In this document: positions 1,808 through 15,442 of the stretch, one piece after another
How the letters are laid out: each line of letters begins with the position of its first letter
Position numbering within the stretch: position 1 is the stretch's first letter
NCBI RefSeq assembly: GCF_001434895.1
Contig: NZ_AZEE01000029.1
Location: 37,257-101,256, forward strand
DNA length: 64,000 nt
Direction of reading: 5' to 3'
Origin: Secundilactobacillus odoratitofui DSM 19909 = JCM 15043
GTDB lineage: Bacteria; Bacillota; Bacilli; Lactobacillales; Lactobacillaceae
Program-made: the position numbers and the translations under genes
The notes under the pieces: model-generated
What the model saw: the letters and a program-made list of their open reading frames with translations, nothing else
The model's database searches: none
What the model was told of the DNA's origin: nothing

Positions 1808-2497
1808 CTACAGGTATGACAATGGATCATGCTCTTGGTACATATGATTTTTGAGTTCAACATTCGTTCTAGCTTCACTGCGAAAACCATATCGACGTCC
1901 TCGCTGATCGAACGAAATCACCTGATCCTTGATGACGTAACTCCGACTTCCAGAAAGTAACTTAGCATCAGCAATTAGTTCTATTGAAATAGTTTCGTGA
2001 TTATTATCTGTTTGATACCATTTTGCTGCTTGCCACTCTATCTCTCGCAATGCATCAACCGGATTTTTATCGGCAATTATGTGTGTCTTCAAGATCCCAG
2101 CTGGTGCGTTTGACCGTCTACCTAAATACAGTTGAAACTTTGGATGTTTTAATGCTGATTCAAGTTCATCTACAAACGCATCGTTTTCACTGCCAATGGC
2201 GACCACAAACACTGCGTCCTGCAAGTAATCCCGGTACGTGATTTTACGTGTGTCTTTTTTCCATTCTACCGTCTGAAATTCATGCAATACCTTACCAGGT
2301 TGATCAATACGCACCGCAAACAACAAGTCATTCAAGTCGGTAATACGTTCATCATCCCGATGATAACCAAGTGCAGCTGCCAGCATGCCAATTACCGCAC
2401 TTTTTGAAGGATAATCATTGGTCGTTCTCCGCGTAAACGTCGCTTCGTTGCCAAACGACTGTAGTGGTGCCTTAAAATTAATCGCTAAAGTTTTCAT
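1808..2497 (-). CDS. cas5e: Cascade subunit Cas5e (CasD)
   Basis: A 229-aa protein with the Cas5 N-terminal signature: MKTLAINFKAPLQSFG, then RTTNDYPSKSAVIGMLAAALG. Cas5e caps the 5' handle of the crRNA and contacts Cas8e in the Cascade surveillance complex. Its start overlaps the end of cas7 by 20 nt, typical of tightly coupled cas operons. No frameshift or missing region is apparent. Confidence 0.96.
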   Translation of the reverse strand: MKTLAINFKAPLQSFGNEATFTRRTTNDYPSKSAVIGMLAAALGYHRDDERITDLNDLLFAVRIDQPGKVLHEFQTVEWKKDTRKITYRDYLQDAVFVVAIGSENDAFVDELESALKHPKFQLYLGRRSNAPAGILKTHIIADKNPVDALREIEWQAAKWYQTDNNHETISIELIADAKLLSGSRSYVIKDQVISFDQRGRRYGFRSEARTNVELKNHMYQEHDPLSYL

Positions 2498-3554
2498 CCT
2501 GCACCGCCTTCTTCAGACCGTCAGATACTTTGTTGAGCAAATCATCCACGTTAGTTGCCGAAACGACACCGTCAAGATCTTTAGCCTCAAATTTACTCAA
2601 TACTGCGGTAAGTTCAGGCTTTTCAACATATTGGCTAGTTGAATCATATTCGGCCTCAAGTCTTTTAATTGAAGCCTCTACATAACCATCGTTTGACTTG
2701 ACCGGTTTTTCAAACGCTGACACTAAGTTGACGGGTGTGTCCGTTCTCAAACTAACCATTACATAATTAGGTAGTGTTTTATTGGCATAACTATTTTGCT
2801 TACCCGTTGGCATCGAAAGTAAGAAGCTCTTAATATAATTCAGTGCACCGTCAATTGCAGCCTCTTCACCAATATTATGCATTAATTCATGCAAATTGAG
2901 GTTGGCATATCGGTACAAGGTGGCCGAATTGTACTCCGACGTTCCAAGCATTGCTGCACCGGTATTATCTTCGGGTTGATCATCATCTAGCGCAGTATAG
3001 TAATCAAATTCAGGAATAATTTCGTGCGTCGAAATGGCATGCGCAACTTGTGCAGATGCTTCAACATTCAATTCTGGATTATCAGCCACCATCCGACCAA
3101 ATAACGCTAAGTCCAAGGACTGGTTACCTTTTAGTACAGCCTTGACTTCTTTTTTATCCAATTCATCGTGCGAGAGAGCGTACTTAGCTAACTGCTCCAA
3201 CTGGCCACGACTGACCATCAATAGTGCACCAGTTTGACGGTCTTTAGTTAATTTAACCCCAGCTGTTTTGAACACTGCATCAACCTTTGCAGTCACATCA
3301 TCTTCAGATAATGAACTATCTAAATCTGTAATACTTTCAGCCAACAATTTTGCGGCATTCTTGGTCCGTAAGCCTTCTGAGACCTTCTCCGCTTTAAATA
3401 CATCTCGCATCGCATGTTTCCAACTTTGAGACGAAACTCGAGCACGAGTTACGCCACCGTACTGCGCAGTTTTTGGTGCACCAGTGTCGTCGCGGTTAAT
3501 GTTTGAAGAAGGTACAGTTTGTAACACGTTAATATCCACATACAAATTACTCAT
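2478..3554 (-). CDS. cas7e: Cascade backbone subunit Cas7e (CasC/Cse4)
   Basis: A 358-aa protein of the Cas7/Cse4 family. It begins with MSNLYVDINVLQTVPSSNIN and has the RVSSQSWKHAMRD stretch typical of the family. Six copies normally polymerise along the crRNA spacer. Each thumb flips out every sixth nucleotide, so positions 6, 12, 18 and so on are not read in target pairing. That matters for the mini-array match described in the findings. The start overlaps cse2 by 8 nt. Confidence 0.97.
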   Translation of the reverse strand: MSNLYVDINVLQTVPSSNINRDDTGAPKTAQYGGVTRARVSSQSWKHAMRDVFKAEKVSEGLRTKNAAKLLAESITDLDSSLSEDDVTAKVDAVFKTAGVKLTKDRQTGALLMVSRGQLEQLAKYALSHDELDKKEVKAVLKGNQSLDLALFGRMVADNPELNVEASAQVAHAISTHEIIPEFDYYTALDDDQPEDNTGAAMLGTSEYNSATLYRYANLNLHELMHNIGEEAAIDGALNYIKSFLLSMPTGKQNSYANKTLPNYVMVSLRTDTPVNLVSAFEKPVKSNDGYVEASIKRLEAEYDSTSQYVEKPELTAVLSKFEAKDLDGVVSATNVDDLLNKVSDGLKKAVQDENFSD

Positions 3555-4155
3555 GATCAGTTATCTCCTCTGCTTTTTGTTGACTATTTTCTGTCCGATA
3601 GTATTTTTGACCCCAACTCAACTTAATGCGGTTGGCGTATTCAAAGTTGGCCTGGAACCAATATAAATCCTCTGCAAGTCTTGGAAAATCAATGGTGCCG
3701 GTTTTGTCGTTTGACTTCACAATATTGCCCAGTGAAACCAAGCTATGAATGACACTGTCCACCGTAGTTGCCGACACTAACGTTTGAAAACGACGATCAA
3801 GCGCATCCGAGCTCTCAGCAGTACCACGTAACTTAGCTAATCTTGAAAAGAAATTCAAGTTTGAATTCGAATCATCTTTTTTCATTAAATAAACCGGTGT
3901 TTCTCGTCCTTGTTGCTGGTTGGCAAACAATCTCAATGCGGCAAAAATCGCAACTTCTGCATGTGTCGGCGTCCCATCTTCGCTTAAATACTTACGATCC
4001 AATGCAGCAAAGATGATTGGCCAAACCGGCTGAGCTTTTGGACTGGTGATTGTTGCCGCACCTCGTAAGCTTGCTAAAGCTGCTCGATTAAGATTTCCAT
4101 CAGCATACAACCGTCCAATAATTCGTTGTGTTACTTTACCAATTTCAAAACTCAT
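3547..4155 (-). CDS. cse2: Cascade small subunit Cse2 (CasB/Cas11e)
   Basis: A 202-aa, mainly helical protein located between cas8e and cas7e, which is the invariant position of cse2. The sequence includes RGAATITSPKAQPVWPIIFAAL and a downstream E-V-A-I-F-A-A-L-R-L-F-A helix typical of CasB. Two copies form the belly of Cascade and stabilise the R-loop. It follows cas8e by 5 nt. Confidence 0.93.
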   Translation of the reverse strand: MSFEIGKVTQRIIGRLYADGNLNRAALASLRGAATITSPKAQPVWPIIFAALDRKYLSEDGTPTHAEVAIFAALRLFANQQQGRETPVYLMKKDDSNSNLNFFSRLAKLRGTAESSDALDRRFQTLVSATTVDSVIHSLVSLGNIVKSNDKTGTIDFPRLAEDLYWFQANFEYANRIKLSWGQKYYRTENSQQKAEEITDHE

Positions 4156-4160
4156 CTAAC

Positions 4161-5882
4161 TCACCTTTTTCCCAATTCTAAATCTTGGCTAACCCAATAA
4201 TTCAGTTGATTTTTGGCAGTAAAAATATTTTCCAACTTTCTATTATCGTTTTTATCAACAATCGTGATGCCTTTAATATCTCGTGGAGAGGCTTCCTTCA
4301 TGAAAGCATCAGTTTGTTCATTTACAATTTTCCGCAACGCTTGTTGCCATTCCTCCGATTTCTTATCCCGATCATCCTGGTCCGTTAATGACTGTAGCCA
4401 TGCCTTGAATGGCTGATTTAAGCGATCATAAAACTTCGCACTTTCAGTATTGGCAAAAGCTTTAGAATCAATATTTCGAATTTGCCCGATTTTAGCCACA
4501 AATCGCCAATAATCAGACCCGACTTTTTGCGTTCTATCAATCAAGCCCATAATTCGACCAGGCCAAAAATCGTCGCTGTCATCAAAAAGAATCCCAGCAC
4601 TAACACTCATATCATCGACTACTTCTGCAACTGGTGCTTGGGATGTCGCGTTACCATCACTAATTAATGCTGTGGACACTAGGTTAATCTGCTGAGCATC
4701 TGGAATGATGTCCGCGTCATCCAAGGTATTTAACCACTTAACCAACCCCGGCTTAAACTGACTGTCTTCTTCACTCGTTTTAACGTATGACCCAAAATTA
4801 CGCCACATTGCGATGCCAAGTGAGCGGAGGCCCTTAACGGCTGGTTTAAAGTTCTCAACCGTCGCGTGTTTATCACTTTTATCAATTTTCCAGACAGTCA
4901 TCGGCTCCAAGAAGCAGTTGATACTACTAAACATCGGCAAACCTGCACTAAAAATGGTTGGTTGGTCTTCTTGCCACTCAATATGGATCACACGTGACCA
5001 TGCCGTATACAGGAACGCTAAATTAGTAGGCGCTTGTGCCAACTTACGTTCTTCAACATACTTGATTACGGTGTCATATTCCCAAACTGGTTTTTGATTC
5101 TGATAAATCTGATCACCGTCTGTTTGCACAAGCACCAAATTTAACATCAAGGTATCAAATAACGTTTGACCTTTAGCGAACACCGGATTTAATCGATACA
5201 GCCAGCCAGCTGGGTTAGAAAATTTCTCTTCCATTTCAATTTTGGTTTTGTCCGTGACGCCGGTAAAGTTCTGATACGAAATAAGCCAGCGGACCAATTC
5301 TGGAATGGTGATTTGGTCCTTAAATTCAGCAACTTTGGGTGAAAAGATTGCTGGTGTATTACCACTCTCCGATACTTGCCGGTTAATTTGTTTGACCGAA
5401 ACAGTACCGGTTCCAGTCGCAATCTTCTTTTTGGCGGGAACCAACTGGTCGTATTCGTCAGCGGTCACTTGATAAAACGGTGTTCCACCAAAAAAATCAA
5501 ATTTTGACTGATACAGTTTCAGATATTGCACAACAACGTCAGAAAACTTACCAGATTGATATAAATCATCCCAAGTATCCAATAAATCATCAGGCTGGTA
5601 AGCAAAATCATCTACTGCAGCCTTAACCTGCATTGAGTCTGAGTCAAGTTCTAGCCAACTATACGGTTCATTGTTGGCGTCGAAACGTGAGTAGACCGTG
5701 TGCAAAACTGCCAGTAGCAGCCGCATAATTACTAAATCTTGGGTTTTCATCTCACCCGCTAATTGTCGATACTGTTGAGCATGTTCGAATAGCGTTGTGA
5801 GTGAAACCGTTTGTTCTTCACCGGTTTCAAGTTCAAGCACTTTAATCCAAGGATCTGTCACCAAATTAAATTGTTGTACCAT
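4161..5882 (-). CDS. cas8e: Cascade large subunit Cas8e (Cse1/CasA)
   Basis: The protein starts MVQQFNLVTDPWIKVLEL, the standard Cse1 N-terminus, and is about 573 aa long. The start at 5882 is preferred over an upstream start at 5966 because an AAAGGGAGGG ribosome binding site lies just before it and the longer form would add residues unlike the family. Cas8e reads the PAM, opens the target duplex and recruits Cas3. The start overlaps the cas3 stop by 17 nt. The sequence is continuous, with no sign of decay. Confidence 0.96.
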   Translation of the reverse strand: MVQQFNLVTDPWIKVLELETGEEQTVSLTTLFEHAQQYRQLAGEMKTQDLVIMRLLLAVLHTVYSRFDANNEPYSWLELDSDSMQVKAAVDDFAYQPDDLLDTWDDLYQSGKFSDVVVQYLKLYQSKFDFFGGTPFYQVTADEYDQLVPAKKKIATGTGTVSVKQINRQVSESGNTPAIFSPKVAEFKDQITIPELVRWLISYQNFTGVTDKTKIEMEEKFSNPAGWLYRLNPVFAKGQTLFDTLMLNLVLVQTDGDQIYQNQKPVWEYDTVIKYVEERKLAQAPTNLAFLYTAWSRVIHIEWQEDQPTIFSAGLPMFSSINCFLEPMTVWKIDKSDKHATVENFKPAVKGLRSLGIAMWRNFGSYVKTSEEDSQFKPGLVKWLNTLDDADIIPDAQQINLVSTALISDGNATSQAPVAEVVDDMSVSAGILFDDSDDFWPGRIMGLIDRTQKVGSDYWRFVAKIGQIRNIDSKAFANTESAKFYDRLNQPFKAWLQSLTDQDDRDKKSEEWQQALRKIVNEQTDAFMKEASPRDIKGITIVDKNDNRKLENIFTAKNQLNYWVSQDLELGKR

Positions 5883-8625
5883 CGTCACCCTCCCTTTCGT
5901 AGCTGAGTCCCCGTTCAATTGAATAGTGCAACTGCCAAGCGCCAAGTTGAGCGTCGTTGTTATCATCTAAAGGCAATGCAAGTGCGCCTTTCAGCCACTT
6001 ACTAGCCTGCCAATCTGGGAAAAGACGACTGGTTCGGCGCTCTAATTCTTGAATCGCACTATCGATGTCTCTCGTCACTGCTGCCGGAATGCGAATTAAC
6101 TGTGTCGCGATTTCCTTTGACTGGCACTCTTTCAAGGGTCTGCCGTCCAATAGAAAATTGCCATCTGACGTATGTTGAACAAGAATGACTTCCAATGTTT
6201 CTTGAATATCCCGAACAGCGGCACTAGCACGTTGTTCGCTTTGATCGACATTTTTTTGGCTACGGCTTAACCAACCGTGTAAATTATCACGTCGGCCAAA
6301 TTTAGGTCGATCAATTCGAAACACTTTTGCTTTGTCTTCTTTTTGTTTCAAGTCGTGTTCAAAGTCCCGTTTAGCAGCTATGATACCGGATTCATCGGGG
6401 TCCTGATTAAAATTGTAAACCTGTTGCACCAATTTTGAAATATCACCAGGTAAATTAATTGACTTGTCTAATACTTCATCTGTCTTCATCAATAAGTATT
6501 TACCGTAAATCGACTCATTCGCATCACCATACTCACCCATCTTTTGAATACCCATTACAACAAGCTTTGGTTCTTGCAATTTAATCGGTCGTTCAATCTG
6601 ACGACGATGCAATCGGCCGGCACGTTGTAGGATTAGATCCATCGGAGCAATATCCGTATACATCACGTCAAAATCTATGTCGAGTGATTGTTCAAGAACC
6701 TGGGTACCAATAACTACGAGTTTTTCAGGTCGTTTGCCTTTTTTCCCAATCAAGTTTTGTAAATATTGTTCACGCTTAACTCGCTCCGGTGCCAATAAGG
6801 CTGAATGAAGTAGCACACATTCAATATCTTCCGGTAAAATTGCCGCTAATTGTTGTGCACGTTTGACCGTATTTACAATAATTCCGGCCACTCCGCCACC
6901 ATCAATATCAGTTAATACCTTTTGAATTAACGCTTCATCATCTATGTTCAGTCGTTGAACGTTTAACTGAAGTGGTTTTTGATCAGAAACACCTGGGAAT
7001 TCGGTTGTTTGCTTAACCTGTTTACCATCCAAAATTGTAAGTAGTGGATAAGCTTCAGAATCACGCCAATTATCTGGGACCAATGATTCATCAACGTTGT
7101 TGAAATTAGCATTATATTTACCTTCGAAGTAAGCCTTCAACAGGTTATTGCGAGTCTGCTTAGGCAAAGTTGCTGACAGAATGACCACTGGTACGTGATA
7201 AATACCTAGCCAATTTAAAGCCCGGTATAAGAACTGGTCCATAAAGCAGTCGTATGCGTGAGCTTCATCGAGAATAACTACCTTATCACTCAGACCAATA
7301 TGCCTCAAAAACAGATGTCGCTGTTTTAACCCCATCAATAATAAATTATCAACAGTACCCACACTGAATTTGGAGAGAATCGATTTTTTACCAGAAAACC
7401 AACTATTAATCGTTACAGCACCGGTATCTTGAACGTTGGCTGCGGTTGGAAGACTTTGGTAGTTCGGATTGAACTTCGATTTTCCATGCATCAAATTAAT
7501 CGAAAAATTAGTGTCCTGCCGTTGCGCTTGCCAAGACAACCAGTCATCCACCCGATCAAACATTGCGTTAGAGGTTGCCTGAGTTGGTAGTCCGAAGAAA
7601 AGACCGTCGCTACCAGTTTTATAGGCGAGCTGTTCAGCTGCCACCAAGGCAATTTCAGTCTTGCCTAAACCCATCGGCGCCTCGACGACGATGATACCTG
7701 GGTCCTTACAATCATTAATGGCCGTTGTCATAGCTTTTTGAACAGGCCGAGGTGAAAATCCCCAGCGGGCTTCATAGGGATCCTGATTACCATTACTAAT
7801 GTTTTGTGGTTGCCACTTGTCATCAAGTGACCAAGTTAACATTGCAGACTGAAAACGACTGGTTTCATCAATATCATCAAACGATTCGTCAATACCAATT
7901 AGTGGAAACATGACTTTATCAGTGTCATTGCCTAACCACTCACTGGAAGCTAACCAATCAGCAGTGATTAATAGCCCTTCTAAGATTACAGCCTGTGGTT
8001 GAGTCACATTGGGTACTTCGTCTACTGATTCATATCCAGCTTTTGATAGTGCCATTTCGACTAACGCACGTTGGACGTCTTGCCAAGGTTTTTGGATTTC
8101 AGGGTCCTGATCGCTCTGCCAATAATTGGCTTTATAGTCTTTGATTTGTTTTTTCGGCTTATTCTCATCTGGCATCCCGTGATGGGCCCCAATGATTGCA
8201 CCGATTGATTCTGGTACGCCATATTCTTCTAAAATCGCCTCACCGGCTCTACCATGTGGTGACTGTTTTCTCGCTGCTAAATCCGTTTCGTCTAAACCGG
8301 TAAAACCACTCTGAATGAGTTGTTCAATTAAGCGACCATCAATTTCTTGCTCATGTCCATATGAGGGCTGCGTCTGAAATGATGGAAGCGCTTTCCCAAG
8401 ATCGTGGCTGAAGCCGATAAATTTAACCAGTTTTTGAAGACTTTCTTCGTTTAAATTAGTCAATAGAAGTCTTTTTTGGCTATCACTGAGCCAATGATTA
8501 AATAGCCAATTGATGGTTAGTTCCGCATCCTCCAAATGAGTCAGTAGCGGGAGCCACAGTTGTTGCCCATCTTCCGTTCGTTTCTTACCCCAGAGTGCTT
8601 TGATTTGTTGATTGGTGTTTGCCAT
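5866..8625 (-). CDS. cas3: CRISPR effector nuclease-helicase Cas3
   Basis: A 919-aa protein with an N-terminal HD nuclease domain: His30, the GFSHDLGKAL motif with H74-D75, H124, and H148-H149 in GAHHG. A superfamily 2 helicase follows, with Walker A APMGLGKT at 316-323, DEAH at 453-456, a SATLP motif and a QRAGRLHRR motif VI. Cas3 is recruited by Cascade to nick and degrade target DNA processively. As first gene of the operon it sits downstream of the putative promoter at 8675-8703. Its leader contains the mini-array pseudo-protospacer. The ribosome binding site is weak (AGAAAG). Confidence 0.97.
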   Translation of the reverse strand: MANTNQQIKALWGKKRTEDGQQLWLPLLTHLEDAELTINWLFNHWLSDSQKRLLLTNLNEESLQKLVKFIGFSHDLGKALPSFQTQPSYGHEQEIDGRLIEQLIQSGFTGLDETDLAARKQSPHGRAGEAILEEYGVPESIGAIIGAHHGMPDENKPKKQIKDYKANYWQSDQDPEIQKPWQDVQRALVEMALSKAGYESVDEVPNVTQPQAVILEGLLITADWLASSEWLGNDTDKVMFPLIGIDESFDDIDETSRFQSAMLTWSLDDKWQPQNISNGNQDPYEARWGFSPRPVQKAMTTAINDCKDPGIIVVEAPMGLGKTEIALVAAEQLAYKTGSDGLFFGLPTQATSNAMFDRVDDWLSWQAQRQDTNFSINLMHGKSKFNPNYQSLPTAANVQDTGAVTINSWFSGKKSILSKFSVGTVDNLLLMGLKQRHLFLRHIGLSDKVVILDEAHAYDCFMDQFLYRALNWLGIYHVPVVILSATLPKQTRNNLLKAYFEGKYNANFNNVDESLVPDNWRDSEAYPLLTILDGKQVKQTTEFPGVSDQKPLQLNVQRLNIDDEALIQKVLTDIDGGGVAGIIVNTVKRAQQLAAILPEDIECVLLHSALLAPERVKREQYLQNLIGKKGKRPEKLVVIGTQVLEQSLDIDFDVMYTDIAPMDLILQRAGRLHRRQIERPIKLQEPKLVVMGIQKMGEYGDANESIYGKYLLMKTDEVLDKSINLPGDISKLVQQVYNFNQDPDESGIIAAKRDFEHDLKQKEDKAKVFRIDRPKFGRRDNLHGWLSRSQKNVDQSEQRASAAVRDIQETLEVILVQHTSDGNFLLDGRPLKECQSKEIATQLIRIPAAVTRDIDSAIQELERRTSRLFPDWQASKWLKGALALPLDDNNDAQLGAWQLHYSIERGLSYEREGDDGTTI

Positions 8626-8634
8626 TTCGTTTGT

Positions 8635-8658
8635 CTTCTTTCTGGTAAATACAATGTT
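8635..8658 (-). promoter_or_regulatory. Pseudo-protospacer of the mini-array in the cas operon leader
   Basis: Read on the minus strand, AAC at 8658-8656 is followed by a 21-nt stretch at 8655-8635 that matches the mini-array pseudo-spacer at 16 of 21 positions. Positions 1-5, 7-11, 13-15 and 18-20 match; 6, 12, 16, 17 and 21 do not. Positions 6 and 12 are not read by Cascade, so the first 15 nt are effectively fully complementary. The site lies between the predicted transcription start and the cas3 start codon, where bound Cascade would block transcription. Confidence 0.75.
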
Positions 8659-8674
8659 ATCTAAATTTACCTAA

Positions 8675-8703
8675 AGCATAAACAACTATCGCTAAAATTT
8701 CAA
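8675..8703 (-). promoter_or_regulatory. Putative cas operon promoter
   Basis: On the minus strand a TTGAAA -35 box (8703-8698), a 17-nt spacer and a TATGCT -10 box (8680-8675) precede cas3, predicting a start near 8668 and a leader of about 43 nt. A perfect 10-bp inverted repeat, AAACAACTAT at 8680-8689 and ATAGTTGTTT at 8727-8736, brackets the -35 region and may be a repressor site. The assignment is by consensus only. Confidence 0.6.
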
Positions 8704-8738
8704 GTATTTATACCTGAATTTCGTTAATAGTTGTTTTC

Positions 8739-8812
8739 AACACCTGCTAATGCAGGGAATACTTTCGCTCTAGTAAAAACAATTGGATCACCCTCGCACA
8801 GCGAGGAACAAC
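8739..8812 (-). CRISPR. Mini-CRISPR unit with two degenerate repeats (CreR-like Cas-regulating guide)
   Basis: Two diverged repeats flank a short spacer. The promoter-proximal one (8812-8785, minus strand) keeps the GTGATCC handle and a CCTCGC/GCGAGG hairpin that differs from the main CTCCGC/GCGGAG stem yet still pairs. The second (about 8762-8739) keeps the GTATTC start and a CCTGC/GCAGG stem. Between them, after one extra handle base (A at 8784), lies a 21-nt pseudo-spacer (8783-8763) instead of the usual 32. Stem maintenance by paired changes suggests that Cas6e processing is retained. The pseudo-spacer matches the cas leader (8635-8655). It could instead be an old array remnant, but the private promoter and the target match argue otherwise. 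Confidence 0.8.
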
Positions 8813-8825
8813 ATATCACAAAATG

Positions 8826-8834
8826 AGTATATCA
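8826..8834 (-). promoter_or_regulatory. Extended -10 promoter of the mini-CRISPR unit
   Basis: The minus strand carries TGATATACT (TGn plus TATACT, -10 box at 8831-8826), ending 13 nt before the first degenerate repeat. The main array has TGATATAAT ending 14 nt before its first repeat. The shared architecture suggests the mini-unit is transcribed on its own rather than being a decayed trailer. No convincing -35 box is seen, as usual for extended -10 promoters. Confidence 0.6.
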
Positions 8835-8859
8835 TTATTTTGATTAGGTTGACTAATTT

Positions 8860-9048
8860 TCAATAATCAATACCAGGTTCTATTACCGGTTCAAAGGGTT
8901 TTCCAGTTAAAAGCGCTTCACGAATGTGGTGCACAACATCGGTATCATTTAAATAAATTGGATAAGCAATGCTGAAAAATTCGCAGTACGCAAAAATTAA
9001 TTGCTCGTCTGGAATTGCTGCTACTTCAGCGGGACTCATTGGCCGCAT
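8860..9048 (-). CDS. Small acidic protein of unknown function between the mini-array and the main array
   Basis: A 62-aa open frame begins MRPMSPAEVAAIPDEQLIFA and is preceded by a strong GGAGG seven nucleotides upstream of its ATG, which supports real translation. It is rich in Asp and Glu with few basic residues, has no signal peptide or membrane segment, and matches no family I recognise. It lies in the same orientation as the cas genes, between the trailer end of the main array and the mini-array promoter. A CRISPR-linked role (regulator, anti-CRISPR-like acidic protein) is only a guess from position and charge. Confidence 0.6.
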   Translation of the reverse strand: MRPMSPAEVAAIPDEQLIFAYCEFFSIAYPIYLNDTDVVHHIREALLTGKPFEPVIEPGIDY

Positions 9049-9110: not shown

Positions 9111-12100
9111 GAATCGCCTCCGCATTTACGGAGAATACATTGCACTGGTTGTCTTCGCTACCCCACCTTTGGAATCACCTCCGCATGTGCGGAGAATACG
9201 AGCTTGCTCTTTTTGCGACGGTTTTTGGGGGAGAATCACCTCCGCATGCGCGGAGAATACCGCTAGACACCGCCAAGCTGACCACGATTGAGAGGATCAG
9301 CGGAGAATACATCTGGAAGCAGCTCAAAATGACCGCGAGGCTAGGATCACCTCCGCATGTGCGGAGAATACTTGATGTGGAGACCGTGAACGATTCCAGG
9401 CATAAGGATCACCTCCGCATGTGCGGAGAATACTCACACAAGCCAACTGAAACTGGTTCAATACTGGGATCACCTCCGCATGTGCGGAGAATACCGACCA
9501 TGGACCAACCTACTACCAAAACCGTCGGGATCACCTCCGCATGTGCGGAGAATACACTTAATCGATTTGTTATTGGTGATGGTGAGCTTGGGATCACCTC
9601 CGCATGTGCGGAGAATACAGCTCGCCCAGATAGTGACGATGAGTTTTTGCGGGATCACCTCCGCATGTGCGGAGAATACTCGCTATGAAGATTAAAGAAA
9701 ACACTGCCCTTAGGATCACCTCCGCATGTGCGGAGAATACTTGCAGGCCTGTCTAAGTTGGTTAAGTGCCTCGGGATCACCTCCGCATGTGCGGAGAATA
9801 CACCCGAAAAGGCCGTCATGTTTAGCCAGTACCTGGATCACCTCCGCATGTGCGGAGAATACATCGACGCCAGCAAGCAAGTAGCTGGCAACTGGGGATC
9901 ACCTCCGCATGTGCGGAGAATACCAGTGACTAAAATTCTACAAACTGAACGGTTTGGGATCACCTCCGCATGTGCGGAGAATACACTTTCGCAAACCAAC
10001 GGCGGCCGCTACACGTAGGATCACCTCCGCATGTGCGGAGAATACTAATTGTGGTAGAACGAGTTTGAAGACAATTTGGGATCACCTCCGCATGTGCGGA
10101 GAATACCCTGATAGGTCTTACTGCTGGATAGCTTTTTCAGGATCACCTCCGCATGTGCGGAGAATACAATGGTACGAGAACTATTTAAGGAAAAAGTGTG
10201 GGATCACCTCCGCATGTGCGGAGAATACAAAAAGATACCGCCTAAGCCCAGTGCAACAGGGGGATCACCTCCGCATGTGCGGAGAATACCGCCTCAGCAT
10301 CCTCATCAACCCAACCCATCGGGGATCACCTCCGCATGTGCGGAGAATACAATGAAAAGATGTTTCTTAGATAATATTTCCAGGGATCACCTCCGCATGT
10401 GCGGAGAATACTGAATCAACAAATTAGCCCGATGCCTGAGTTTGGGATCACCTCCGCATGTGCGGAGAATACTGTGTATCTTAGTCCGGTGCCAAGTTTG
10501 TTTGAGGATCACCTCCGCATGTGCGGAGAATACCGCAATGAACCAGATAATGAAAAGATTGTAGCAGGATCACCTCCGCATGTGCGGAGAATACGACCTA
10601 AATAAATACGGTACTGTTCCGGGAATGGGATCACCTCCGCATGTGCGGAGAATACGGCATTTGTACCCCAAATGTTCCCCAAGATATCAGGATCACCTCC
10701 GCATGTGCGGAGAATACTGCCTTCAAGTTCTGAATCGTATTTTAGTAGGTAGGATCACCTCCGCATGTGCGGAGAATACTTCTTTTTGCTTTTTACGCTT
10801 GATATACAGGCGGGATCACCTCCGCATGTGCGGAGAATACTTAAGTTCAAATAGTATTCAAAATCTTTAGCAGGGATCACCTCCGCATGTGCGGAGAATA
10901 CTTTGAGTGGCACCAAATCACGACTGATCAATCGGGATCACCTCCGCATGTGCGGAGAATACTCACTGGCAATTCGCTTGCCAAGTCCGTTATCGGGATC
11001 ACCTCCGCATGTGCGGAGAATACCAGGGCGAAGCTGACTTGTATTTCAAACTGTTAGGATCACCTCCGCATGTGCGGAGAATACATTGCCTTATGATGTT
11101 CAAGACGCTAATCGCAAGGATCACCTCCGCATGTGCGGAGAATACCTCAAGAACGTGTTGTCGTCCATCTCAAAGTGGGGATCACCTCCGCATGTGCGGA
11201 GAATACGTAAGTGTGTAGGGTATGTATGGTTGTGACGGGGGATCACCTCCGCATGTGCGGAGAATACAAATTACTGAAGAAAATTATAGCGATTATATTG
11301 GGATCACCTCCGCATGTGCGGAGAATACTTGAAAATGTATTAGTTTCAACTACGATTTCAAGGATCACCTCCGCATGTGCGGAGAATACTTCGAAAAAGA
11401 TTCAAAATTTGATACATTTTGGGGATCACCTCCGCATGTGCGGAGAATACCTCAGTATGCTGCTAAACCGTTCGCTGCACTGGGGATCACCTCCGCATGT
11501 GCGGAGAATACACAGCGGGAAAAGATACCGTGACGGCGGCATTGGGATCACCTCCGCATGTGCGGAGAATACTAGAGAGGTGATGATAATGAGGCGATAT
11601 ACTTTAGGATCACCTCCGCATGTGCGGAGAATACACAGCGGGAAAAGATACCGTGACGGCGGCATTGGGATCACCTCCGCATGTGCGGAGAATACCGGTT
11701 ATTGAGTGGCTGGAAGGAAGGTGAGCAAGGATCACCTCCGCATGTGCGGAGAATACCACGGTAAGTCGCATCAGCTGGAATCCGCATGGGGATCACCTCC
11801 GCATGTGCGGAGAATACTCTGTAATGTTTTCCCAATTATTTGGTGTTAAGGGATCACCTCCGCATGTGCGGAGAATACACTGACACCAAGACACAGGCCA
11901 AGCAAGCTGAGGGATCACCTCCGCATGTGCGGAGAATACAGGGACAAGCAACGGGGGCGAAATAGATGGCAGGGATCACCTCCGCATGTGCGGAGAATAC
12001 TATTTAGACGATATGTCGATGCTGGGACAGATGGGATCACCTCCGCATGTGCGGAGAATACCAAGTCATCCGGATTGACGACATAAGCGTCAAAGGGATC

Positions 12101-12733
12101 ACCTCCGCATGTGCGGAGAATACTTGGCAAAGAATTACCAAAGGTTGGTTCACGTAGGATCACCTCCGCATGTGCGGAGAATACCAATCAACAGATAACC
12201 GCGCTGATGCCGATTAAGGATCACCTCCGCATGTGCGGAGAATACTATACCAGCATCTTTAAGCTGCTGAATTGTGTGGGATCACCTCCGCATGTGCGGA
12301 GAATACTTAAAAGCAGAACCAACTGGTCCACTAAAGTCAGGATCACCTCCGCATGTGCGGAGAATACATCGCGCAAGCTTGGATGCCTACCCTGACTAAG
12401 GGATCACCTCCGCATGTGCGGAGAATACATATGGCCTCGGTATCATGGACCACTGATAACGGGATCACCTCCGCATGTGCGGAGAATACTCAACCTCAGA
12501 AGTACCCGGTTTAAAAAAACAAGGATCACCTCCGCATGTGCGGAGAATACCGGTATGAGCTTTCCCACAAATCAGTTTCACCGGGATCACCTCCGCATGT
12601 GCGGAGAATACTGGCCGATGCAGTCAAAGATTCAGCTGAATTAGGGATCACCTCCGCATGTGCGGAGAATACAACGACTAGCAATGGCGTTAGCAGGGTT
12701 ACTCAGGATCACCTCCGCATGTGCGGAGAATAC
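9111..12733 (-). CRISPR. Type I-E CRISPR array, 60 repeats and 59 spacers
   Basis: A 28-bp repeat core recurs with a 61-bp period. On the plus strand it begins GGATCACCTCCGCATG and ends TGCGGAGAATAC. In the transcribed (minus) direction it starts GTATTCTCCGC, forms a CTCCGC/GCGGAG hairpin and ends GTGATCC. Including a variable last base, the repeat is effectively 29 nt and most spacers 32 nt; a few intervals are 62 or 63 nt. I count 60 repeats. Those at 9111, 9172 and 9233 carry substitutions and the one at 9294-9310 has lost 11 internal bases, marking the old trailer end on the left. The identical repeats on the right mark the leader end. Transcription therefore runs toward the cas genes. 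Confidence 0.98.
9294..9310 (-). repeat. CRISPR repeat with 11-bp internal deletion
   Basis: The fourth repeat from the trailer end is only 17 bp (GGATCAG followed by CGGAGAATAC). It has lost half of the hairpin and part of the handle-side stem. Cas6e could not process it normally, so the spacers on both sides probably remain fused in one RNA. Confidence 0.9.
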
Positions 12734-13630: not shown

Positions 13631-15442
13631 TTAATTCTTCGAATTATTTAATAATCTAATACGCTCTTTGTATGTTTTACCCGATCTGACTTCAATATTC
13701 AAATCTATAGCTAATTTTGCCCATTCAATAGCCTGATTCTTATTTATTTTTTTAAAGTAAATAAAAAATCTAAACCATGCCACCTGCATTGGATAGTATT
13801 CTCTTTCTAAATATTTATGGTAAAAATCTGTAGGAGCTTCAATTTCAGCCTCAATGTCACGAATTCTACTTTTTAAAGATTTTTTCTTTGGTAGATTTTG
13901 CACACTTCCTGTTATACTCTCTTCATCAATTAGTCCCGAATACTCTCTTCTTAATTTGCCTAGCTCTTTTAACCTTACTTGAATAAAATTATTTTTCCTC
14001 AAGACTATATCTCGAGCTGGGAAAAATTTTTCTTTTAAAGGCATTGATATTGCTTTTTTCGTTAATATATCTTGCTCTTCTTCGAATTGATTATCGCAAA
14101 CATTTAATTTATTTTGTAAATCAATACCTTCTGTTAATCGAATAGAAAAATTTTTAAAATCCAAATTTTTTTCGTATAATTTTTCTCGTATTTTTTGTAA
14201 CATGGATAATTTTTCCTTGTACGTATAAAGTACTGCATCCCTAGTTTTATTCATTCTCTGATATTTTCTAATGTTTTCAGAAAGTTGACTGTATTCATCT
14301 TTTCGATTAGGTAATATTTTTATTCGTTTGATGTATTTATTCACAGATAAATCGCATTCACTACAAATACTGCTAATTACTTCTTTTATCATGTAGTTAG
14401 GCATTATTTCAATTAACTTAACATTATTAATTTCACTAATTTCTTTTTTCCGTTTATCTCGCTCTTGAGCATTTTTAAGACCCGCTTCACCACCGAAAAT
14501 GCTTATCGCCTCGAAATGCTGCGCGCCTTGATATTCTAAGGCAATTTTATATTTTGGAAAATAAATATCATAGTGTTGCAAGCCTAAAAAATCGGGAGAA
14601 TAATGTTGTTTTACAATTTGATCATCAAAAATCAATTGTATTTCTCTAAATAATAAAGTTTCGCTAATCCATCCGGCTCCAACCAACGGTAAATTTTTGC
14701 TTTTTCTAAGTTTATTTTCACTCAAACGAACAAGCTCTTTAAGTTTTTTATTTTTCTCAGTATTCTCTCTTACTTTGTACGTCCTAACCTGTATTGCACC
14801 ATGTGCACCATTCGAATTAGGAAGCCCTAATTCAAAGTAAGTAACATCTCTGTACCGATATAGCCAATTAATCTCAGACTTACTTGACTCCTTTTTTAAT
14901 TCAATTAGGAGTAACTCTTCAATTTCATCAATAAACATTTTACCAACGGTAGTTAAGAGGCTCTGTATGGAAATAGTTTCAAAAAAATCCCTTTCTTTTA
15001 AATTATCATTCATCTCAGGCCAACTATACATTAAAATATCCATTGGAGTAATTCCACTGATCCCTAATAAATATTTTTTAGAGTACTGTATCCATTCCGT
15101 AACAATCTGTTTATTACCAATTAAATTCCCCATTTCACATATCCAACTCGAAGCATACGCAGCTAATTTGGGAACCCTATCTGAATAAGTTTCTATCAAC
15201 CATTTAAAGTCTGGTTCAATTCTTCTAACAGTTTCAATAGATTGATCTAAGTAAAACTGATCAAGTTTTTTCCATAGATAAAAAAAATAATATGAGGTGT
15301 TCTCACATTCAGATGTACTCACCTGCACTTTTTCATGATTATTCCACTGTTTTTCTAGCCATCGATAATAATTTTTTACTTTTAAACTTGCGCTCTCAAA
15401 GTCGTTACCATATTTATCGTTCCATTCTGGAACATTTTTCAA
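13631..15442 (-). CDS. PD-(D/E)XK (Vsr-like fold) nuclease-domain protein, probable defence gene
   Basis: A 603-aa hydrophilic protein with a central nuclease core: SETLLFREIQLIF with Glu262, then DIYFPKYKIALEYQGAQHF with Asp292, Glu303 and Gln305, then RDKRKKEI and VKLIEI. This is the D-x(n)-E-x-Q arrangement of Vsr-like/DUF559-type PD-(D/E)XK domains that bind short DNA ends. The remainder is helical and charged and is not recognised. It is AT-rich like its neighbours, lies 405 bp downstream of the methyltransferase and follows copy 2 of the structured RNA. It may be the cleavage subunit of the neighbouring modification system or an independent nuclease. Confidence 0.75.
   Translation of the reverse strand: MKNVPEWNDKYGNDFESASLKVKNYYRWLEKQWNNHEKVQVSTSECENTSYYFFYLWKKLDQFYLDQSIETVRRIEPDFKWLIETYSDRVPKLAAYASSWICEMGNLIGNKQIVTEWIQYSKKYLLGISGITPMDILMYSWPEMNDNLKERDFFETISIQSLLTTVGKMFIDEIEELLLIELKKESSKSEINWLYRYRDVTYFELGLPNSNGAHGAIQVRTYKVRENTEKNKKLKELVRLSENKLRKSKNLPLVGAGWISETLLFREIQLIFDDQIVKQHYSPDFLGLQHYDIYFPKYKIALEYQGAQHFEAISIFGGEAGLKNAQERDKRKKEISEINNVKLIEIMPNYMIKEVISSICSECDLSVNKYIKRIKILPNRKDEYSQLSENIRKYQRMNKTRDAVLYTYKEKLSMLQKIREKLYEKNLDFKNFSIRLTEGIDLQNKLNVCDNQFEEEQDILTKKAISMPLKEKFFPARDIVLRKNNFIQVRLKELGKLRREYSGLIDEESITGSVQNLPKKKSLKSRIRDIEAEIEAPTDFYHKYLEREYYPMQVAWFRFFIYFKKINKNQAIEWAKLAIDLNIEVRSGKTYKERIRLLNNSKN

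Follow-up and report, generated by a model that had tools for sequence, protein, structure and literature searches.

A putative CreR-like mini-CRISPR with a 21-nt guide to the cas3 leader in a type I-E locus of Secundilactobacillus odoratitofui

CreRs, cas-regulating RNAs of type I-B, I-E and V-A systems, were reportedly described by Liu et al. in 2023 in Cell Host & Microbe. In type II-A, Cas9 is said to repress its own genes with a natural short-matching guide, the long-form tracrRNA. In the accessible parts of the literature, CreRs are partly complementary to promoters and in this way mediate autorepression in types I-B, I-E and V-A (PMC13131331), are widespread in type I and V-A (PMC12737573) and are presented as mini-CRISPR RNAs that sense crRNA abundance (PMC12948488). 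The CreA guide is reported to require nucleotides 1-5 and 7-11, and compensating mutations restore its function (PMC8501985). In engineered type I-B systems with Cas3 present, spacers of 24-26 nt or less are reported to repress without cleavage, and in Haloarcula a 21-nt guide represses much better than one of 20 nt (PMC10989794, PMC10551041).

As far as these sources go, autorepression via a crRNA-like mini-unit is already described as CreR, and the unit presented here adds a case. Since CreR has been published for I-B, I-E and V-A, the unit belongs to a known kind, and the novel part is the observation of two guide sizes. The literature searched (titles and abstract openings, mostly outside subscription papers) gave no report of such a unit in Secundilactobacillus or of natural short CreR guides.

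The window, i.e. the whole stretch of DNA that was analysed (64,000 nucleotides), contains a type I-E locus on its minus strand. The first gene of the operon is cas3 (5866..8625; TIGR01587 and TIGR01596 above cut-off), and cse1 (4161-5966), cse2 (3547-4155), cas7 (2478-3554), cas5 (1808-2497), cas6 (1133-1795) and cas1 (176-1129) are also all open genes on the minus strand. The cse1 gene was below its own cut-off in the first profile search and is identified by Pfam PF09481 (E 8e-91), while cse2 to cas1 were assigned by profile search. Upstream of cas3, the main CRISPR array (9111..12733, minus) has 59 repeats of or near GTATTCTCCGCACATGCGGAGGTGATCC, 56 of them exact, and its transcription runs towards the mini-unit. 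The period is 61 nt in 51 of the 58 intervals and 61-63 nt in 57; the remaining one, of 111 nt (9240-9350), contains a half-lost repeat. The last three repeats on the cas3 side (ends 9138, 9199 and 9260) have 1-4 changes, and an identical spacer is present twice, two units apart (11512-11543 and 11635-11666). Beyond the array lies a 603-aa ORF without a Pfam match (13631-15442, minus). Between the array and the mini-unit there is a 62-aa ORF (8860-9048, minus) with a good ribosome-binding site, AAGGAGG; it has no Pfam match, and the protein collection gave, besides itself, one homologue only (84% identity).

The mini-unit is a mini-CRISPR of two repeats (8741-8812, minus) placed between the main array and cas3, 115 nt upstream of the latter. 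Its first pseudo-repeat, psiR1 (8785..8812, minus), is identical to the main-array repeat at 16 of 28 positions and has kept both the hairpin and the GTGATCC 5' handle. The second, psiR2, is identical at 15 of 28 positions; its conserved core (8741..8762, minus), with which the unit ends, has kept the hairpin and is without the GTGATCC handle. In the predicted folding, psiR1 forms a 7-bp hairpin of -9.8 kcal/mol, compared with -7.8 for psiR2 and -11.1 for the main repeat. The interval between the pseudo-repeats (8763..8784, minus) is 22 nt, against 33 nt in the main array with its canonical 32(+1)-nt spacers. Position 8784 (A) is repeat position 29, which is PAM position -1 in the main array, and 8763-8783 is the 21-nt guide. 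By these repeat identities and this guide length the unit is not a canonical type I-E array. What is found is instead the arrangement of a CreR, an ectopic mini-CRISPR with degenerate repeats adjoining the cas operon. The physical guide length, 21 instead of 32 nt, is a feature that the argument of the original prediction had not used.

The guide (8783-8763, minus; ATTGTTTTTACTAGAGCGAAA) matches a target, or protospacer, in the cas3 leader (8655..8635, minus; ATTGTATTTACCAGAAAGAAG), which has the same sense as the cas3 mRNA and is directly preceded by the PAM AAC (8658..8656, minus). Guide and target agree at 16 of 21 positions, with mismatches at 6, 12, 16, 17 and 21. The coordinates of guide and target, the 16/21 agreement and the restriction of the mismatches in the first 15 positions to 6 and 12 were all part of the original prediction, and all were reproduced. 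It had also taken AAC to fit a pyrimidine at PAM position -1 of the main array. Among the 58 array units, 57 have a pyrimidine at position 29 (37 with C and 20 with T, the other one having A), and AAC therefore fits an AAY motif. A blastn search with the main array gave one weak phage match and 15 plasmid records with matches that look repeat-driven, thus the PAM rests on array position 29 and on the targets. The proposed shuffle check of the match beside AAY came out in its favour: none of 40,000 dinucleotide shuffles of the leader reaches the observed match, and 56 attain even 9 of the 10 seed positions. Counted over both strands, the window has 5,833 AAY sites, and the target alone among them matches at 9 or more of the 10 seed positions. 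The own genome of 2.75 Mb was scanned with the pattern AAYATTGTNTTTACNAGA, i.e. AAY plus positions 1-5, 7-11 and 13-15, with up to 2 mismatches allowed; one site has zero mismatches, the cas3-leader target, and two sites have 2 mismatches. As in a CreR, the complementarity to the cas promoter region is limited and PAM-flanked, its position relative to the promoter being a predicted one.

Cas3 searches gave matches in 6 of 15 genomes of the genus, 60 of 350 of the family and 32 of 395 of the order, and from a scan of named genomes the best 80 loci among the matches listed were used. This resulted in 163 loci with Cas3, of which 5 with less than 150 nt upstream were left out, and after merging identical ones 112 distinct leaders were obtained. 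In 88 of these leaders there are altogether 494 guides that follow a GTGATCC-like handle, a number that also counts canonical spacers. A guide was counted as matching when it has an own site within 450 nt, beside AAY and perfect at positions 1-5 and 7-11. By this criterion 28 of the 112 leaders, the window and 27 others, match themselves, with one guide per leader (28/494 handle-preceded guides). The other array-type guides among the 494 show no such leader match, so the remaining guides, canonical spacers among them, serve as an internal negative control. When each guide was compared with every other leader over the whole 1.5 kb, 20 of 54,834 pairs matched, some of them between near relatives. 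In a stricter version near cas3 (10/10 seed, at least 15/21, plus strand), 17 of 278 guides match their own leader versus 3 of 30,858 control pairs, namely L055/L127 in both directions and L080/L084. With no PAM imposed and repeat and array duplicates removed, 28 seed-perfect matches are found beside AAY and 4 beside other triplets.

The matches span Lactobacillaceae, other families of the order and also Kineothrix and Faecalicatena (L142 and L124). All 28 units have 6-16 differences between their two repeats over 28 positions, and 27 of the units are solitary while that of L131 is the last unit of an array. The target is likewise located before cas3 in most relatives with a match, and 25 of the 28 targets are same-sense with cas3. 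Guide sequences differ among the 28 leaders while the seed match persists, so that guide and target co-vary as expected of a CreR. For example, around the unit the sequences of L116 (Lactobacillus sp. MRS-253-APC-2B) and L120 (Limosilactobacillus mucosae) can be aligned by eye; seed positions 1, 7 and 10 are different in the two guides, the targets have the same substitutions there, and the seed match is still perfect. Within Secundilactobacillus, a unit and a target for it are present in four of the six genomes with Cas3 (the window, L143, L104 and, at 9/10, L006), all with different guides, and those of S. silagei (L143) and S. silagincola (L104) each match their own upstream site. The same-genus loci L003, L005 and L007 share their leaders with the named records of S. 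collinoides, S. silagei and S. silagincola, respectively, in keeping with the genus of the window. The suggested search for covariation of pseudo-spacer and leader is thus positive, and independent divergence of guide and target, named beforehand as refuting the prediction, is not what the relatives show.

The other 84 of the 112 leaders have no such match. Near-misses with 9 of 10 seed matches are found in L006, L036, L096, L121 and L140, and L057 has a 10/10 seed but with its target about 690 nt from the unit. In L042, L050, L083, L141, L160 and L163 a unit is present and no 10/10 site was found within reach, L042 and L083 having weak 9/10 candidates beside AAC. The units of the two Gardnerella leaders (L160 and L163) have 20-nt guides and degenerate repeats and lie 190-200 nt upstream of cas3; for them the seed search found no target within 1.5 kb. 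In S. silagincola (L104, 1734-2820) unit and target are located 1.3-1.4 kb from cas3, and the stretch between contains ORF pieces which by eye resemble a broken TnpB-type gene. These pieces may have separated the operon from its control. A hairpin filter for mini-units that demanded a perfect stem of at least 4 was too strict, and real units were dropped by it.

The best promoter-like motif before cas3 (8675..8703, minus) is predicted from TTGAAA at 8703, a distance of 17 and TATGCT at 8675, with 9 of 12 consensus matches, and the call is weak, as 4 promoter-like motifs are present in the region versus 1.7 expected. The target lies between this motif and the cas3 ATG (8625), its end 9 nt before the ATG. 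The claim that the site is located between the cas transcription start and the ATG holds in that sense, although the start itself depends on the weak call. No TATAAT-like motif (at least 5/6) was found within 60 nt of the window target. Among the relatives, many plus-strand targets lie on or adjoin TATAAT-like motifs, and in 22 leaders the three bins of 10 nt about the start of the target contain 10, 10 and 8 such motifs against 2.9 expected for each, where motifs that overlap are counted individually. In L030, L034, L078, L079, L080, L084, L111, L116, L120 and L142 the target is located upstream of the unit itself, so the guide and the cas genes may there share one common repressed promoter. 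The target of L116 and L120 directly follows a TGATTATAAT motif. For the mini-unit of the window, a promoter is predicted at 8826..8863 (minus), either as TTGAAA at 8863 with AATAAT at 8834 or as TAGTCA at 8855 with TG-TATACT at 8826.

Mismatches were counted per position in 25 units, with three near-identical pairs represented by a single member each and positions 1-5 and 7-11 selected to match. Position 6 is mismatched in 19 and position 12 in 20 of the 25, position 13 in only 2, and the numbers then rise over 6 at position 14, 11 at 15 and 14 at 16 to 18 at 17. In the distal part they are 10 at position 18, 17 at 19, 19 at 20 and 18 at 21. A selection that does not single out position 6 (at least 10/11) still finds 16 of the 19 mismatches within positions 1-11 at position 6. 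A strict every-sixth rule would leave position 18 unread; the signal was sought there and was not seen, with mismatches in 10 of 25 only. In type I-E, according to the part of the source available, a base is flipped out at each sixth position, and position 6 is of little importance (PMC5904413). The pattern at 6 and 12 agrees with these data and with the CreA seed (PMC8501985), and it supports the claim that these are the two positions Cascade does not read. The guides could then be a natural record of the bases read by Cascade, where 1-5, 7-11 and 13 are kept and 6 and 12 are free, a suggestion we make tentatively, as part of the two-size reading below.

The 28 matching guides fall into two size classes when the second repeat is placed automatically, 13 at 20-22 nt (four of 20, six of 21 and three of 22) and 15 at 31-35 nt (two of 31, seven of 32, five of 33 and one of 35), with none between. 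When four near pairs are each reduced to their first member, 10 short and 14 long guides remain. In the same upstream stretches, main-type repeat pairs enclose 32 nt in 228 of 241 cases and 31-38 nt in 240, and the single pair with 20 nt is most likely L057, itself a cas3-leader matcher. Fisher's test gives 1e-13 for guide size (13/15 versus 1/240), with hand-entered counts and near-identical pairs still included. Of 25 degenerate pairs that were listed automatically, some of them at array ends, 10 are at 18-22, 15 at 30-35 and none at 23-29; the finder misses units with imperfect stems. In type I-E each Cas7 has a footprint of 6 nt, and the size gap of about 12 nt equals two such footprints. 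Both sizes occur within Secundilactobacillus, 21 nt in the window, 32 in S. silagei and 31 in S. silagincola, and lineages would therefore have switched size without an intermediate stop. We suggest, with slightly less than even confidence, that cas-repressing guides come in two fixed sizes, 31-35 and 20-22 nt, and that with the short class the same proteins form, next to the 32-nt immune Cascade, a second and shorter one dedicated to repression.

Judged from sequence, it is highly probable that the mini-unit makes a CreR, i.e. a crRNA-like RNA that would guide the cell's own Cascade to the cas3 leader and repress the cas operon, where the repression itself is what we infer. The autorepression of its own operon by Cascade, as originally claimed, is the best reading of the covariation in 28 of 112 leaders together with positions 6 and 12, which behave as unread. 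The unit would be transcribed from the predicted promoter at 8826-8863, the transcript would be cut by Cas6, and the RNA would be loaded into Cascade. Since the guide has the sense of the cas3 mRNA, it cannot pair with the mRNA but can pair with the template DNA strand, and antisense pairing with the mRNA is excluded for all 25 same-sense targets among the 28. The pairing would cover at most about 15-18 nt, and the bound complex would block RNA polymerase between the promoter and the start codon. Following published CreR work, many crRNAs or an anti-CRISPR taking up Cascade would ease the repression and raise cas expression.

Poor pairing beyond position 15, together with the shortness of the guide, would keep Cas3 from cutting. 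E. coli Cascade is reported to bind a target with mismatches at 19-32 like a full match, with neither interference nor priming (PMC5904413). However, type I-E complexes shortened by 12 reportedly keep slow Cas3 cleavage (PMC7296934). Binding without Cas3 cleavage, which the original prediction expected from partial distal pairing, therefore cannot rest on the short guide alone. Six distal mismatches reportedly also weaken promoter repression strongly (a study cited in PMC5904413). From the slow cleavage and this effect taken together, it is probable that the short guide and the mismatches at 16, 17 and 21 are both required for safety from Cas3, and the repression of cas may be moderate in strength.

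The mini-unit could also be a dead relic of the main array with an accidental leader match. Both its repeats are degenerate (16/28 and 15/28), it lies near the trailer end of the array, itself with decayed repeats, and the unit of like kind in L131 is the last of an array. Nevertheless, none of 40,000 shuffles matches as well and the site is unique in the genome, the same kind of match recurs in 28 of 112 leaders against 20 of 54,834 cross-leader control pairs, and both pseudo-repeats still fold as hairpins, all of which makes a relic extremely improbable. If the guide were a spacer captured from the leader in a recent duplication, similar through origin and not function, the two copies within 150 nt and the shared sense of guide and target in 25 of 28 cases would fit, but even decay would be expected. 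The mismatches are instead found at 6, 12 and beyond 13, with position 13 nearly clean, the AAY is kept, and L116 and L120 show paired changes. We regard a duplication without function as highly unlikely; the guide may have arisen by capture, with selection acting later.

The anatomy of the unit and the seed of 1-5 plus 7-11 are also those of CreA, as far as described (PMC8501985), and a 62-aa ORF (8860-9048) lies on the other side of the unit, hence the guide might be an antitoxin that keeps a small toxin, present as RNA or gene (CreT or CreP), repressed, with cas control as a by-product. This is very unlikely, as the target is located directly before the cas3 ATG, and likewise before cas3 in most relatives with a match, and no second seed-perfect site was found in the window or the genome. 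The toxin scan of the stretch between unit and cas3 was by ORFs, to which RNA toxins like CreT are invisible; the longest closed ORF there is of 11 codons, and from another start, located in the target, the frame continues into cas3. Cascade might finally bind the leader with an effect other than repression, such as activation, shielding of the site from Cas3 or sequestration of Cascade, given that its binding is predicted better than its effect and that the promoter positions are predictions. However, many targets lie on or adjoin -10-like motifs, and the CreR and CreA cases in the accounts available all repress, so we attach only minimal weight to such an effect. Repression of the cas operon by a CreR-like unit remains our preferred explanation.

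If the predicted repression takes place, a lactic-acid bacterium has an immune system that sets its own level via one of its own guides and would respond to crRNA load and anti-CRISPR attack without a protein regulator. The 28 natural guide-target pairs also offer data on how small a match can be for Cascade to bind without self-cutting, and the existence of two guide sizes raises the structural question whether the shorter Cascade is a repressor only.

Compared with known systems, the unit resembles the long-form tracrRNA of Cas9 in that an effector would repress its own genes, but effector and RNA are different. Engineered repression with short guides in type I-B with active Cas3 is similar in that spacers of 24-26 nt or less reportedly repress without cleavage (PMC10989794, PMC10551041); it is however artificial and of another type, and in I-E a shortening by 12 reportedly leaves slow cleavage (PMC7296934). 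With CreA of the CreTA modules in type I-B haloarchaea, as described in the accessible text (PMC8501985, PMC9458426), it shares two degenerate repeats, a short guide and a seed of 1-5 plus 7-11 beside the PAM. However, CreA represses a toxin RNA, while in the window no toxin candidate was found between unit and cas3, and the first repeat of CreA is the more diverged one, while those of the window are about equally diverged (16/28 and 15/28). From the CreRs, so far as their descriptions go, the unit differs in its guide of 21 instead of 32 nt and in that repression is inferred here; like them it is a mini-CRISPR adjoining the cas operon and has limited complementarity, with a PAM, to the region of the cas promoter, and no coupled toxin gene was found, here in a scan by ORFs.
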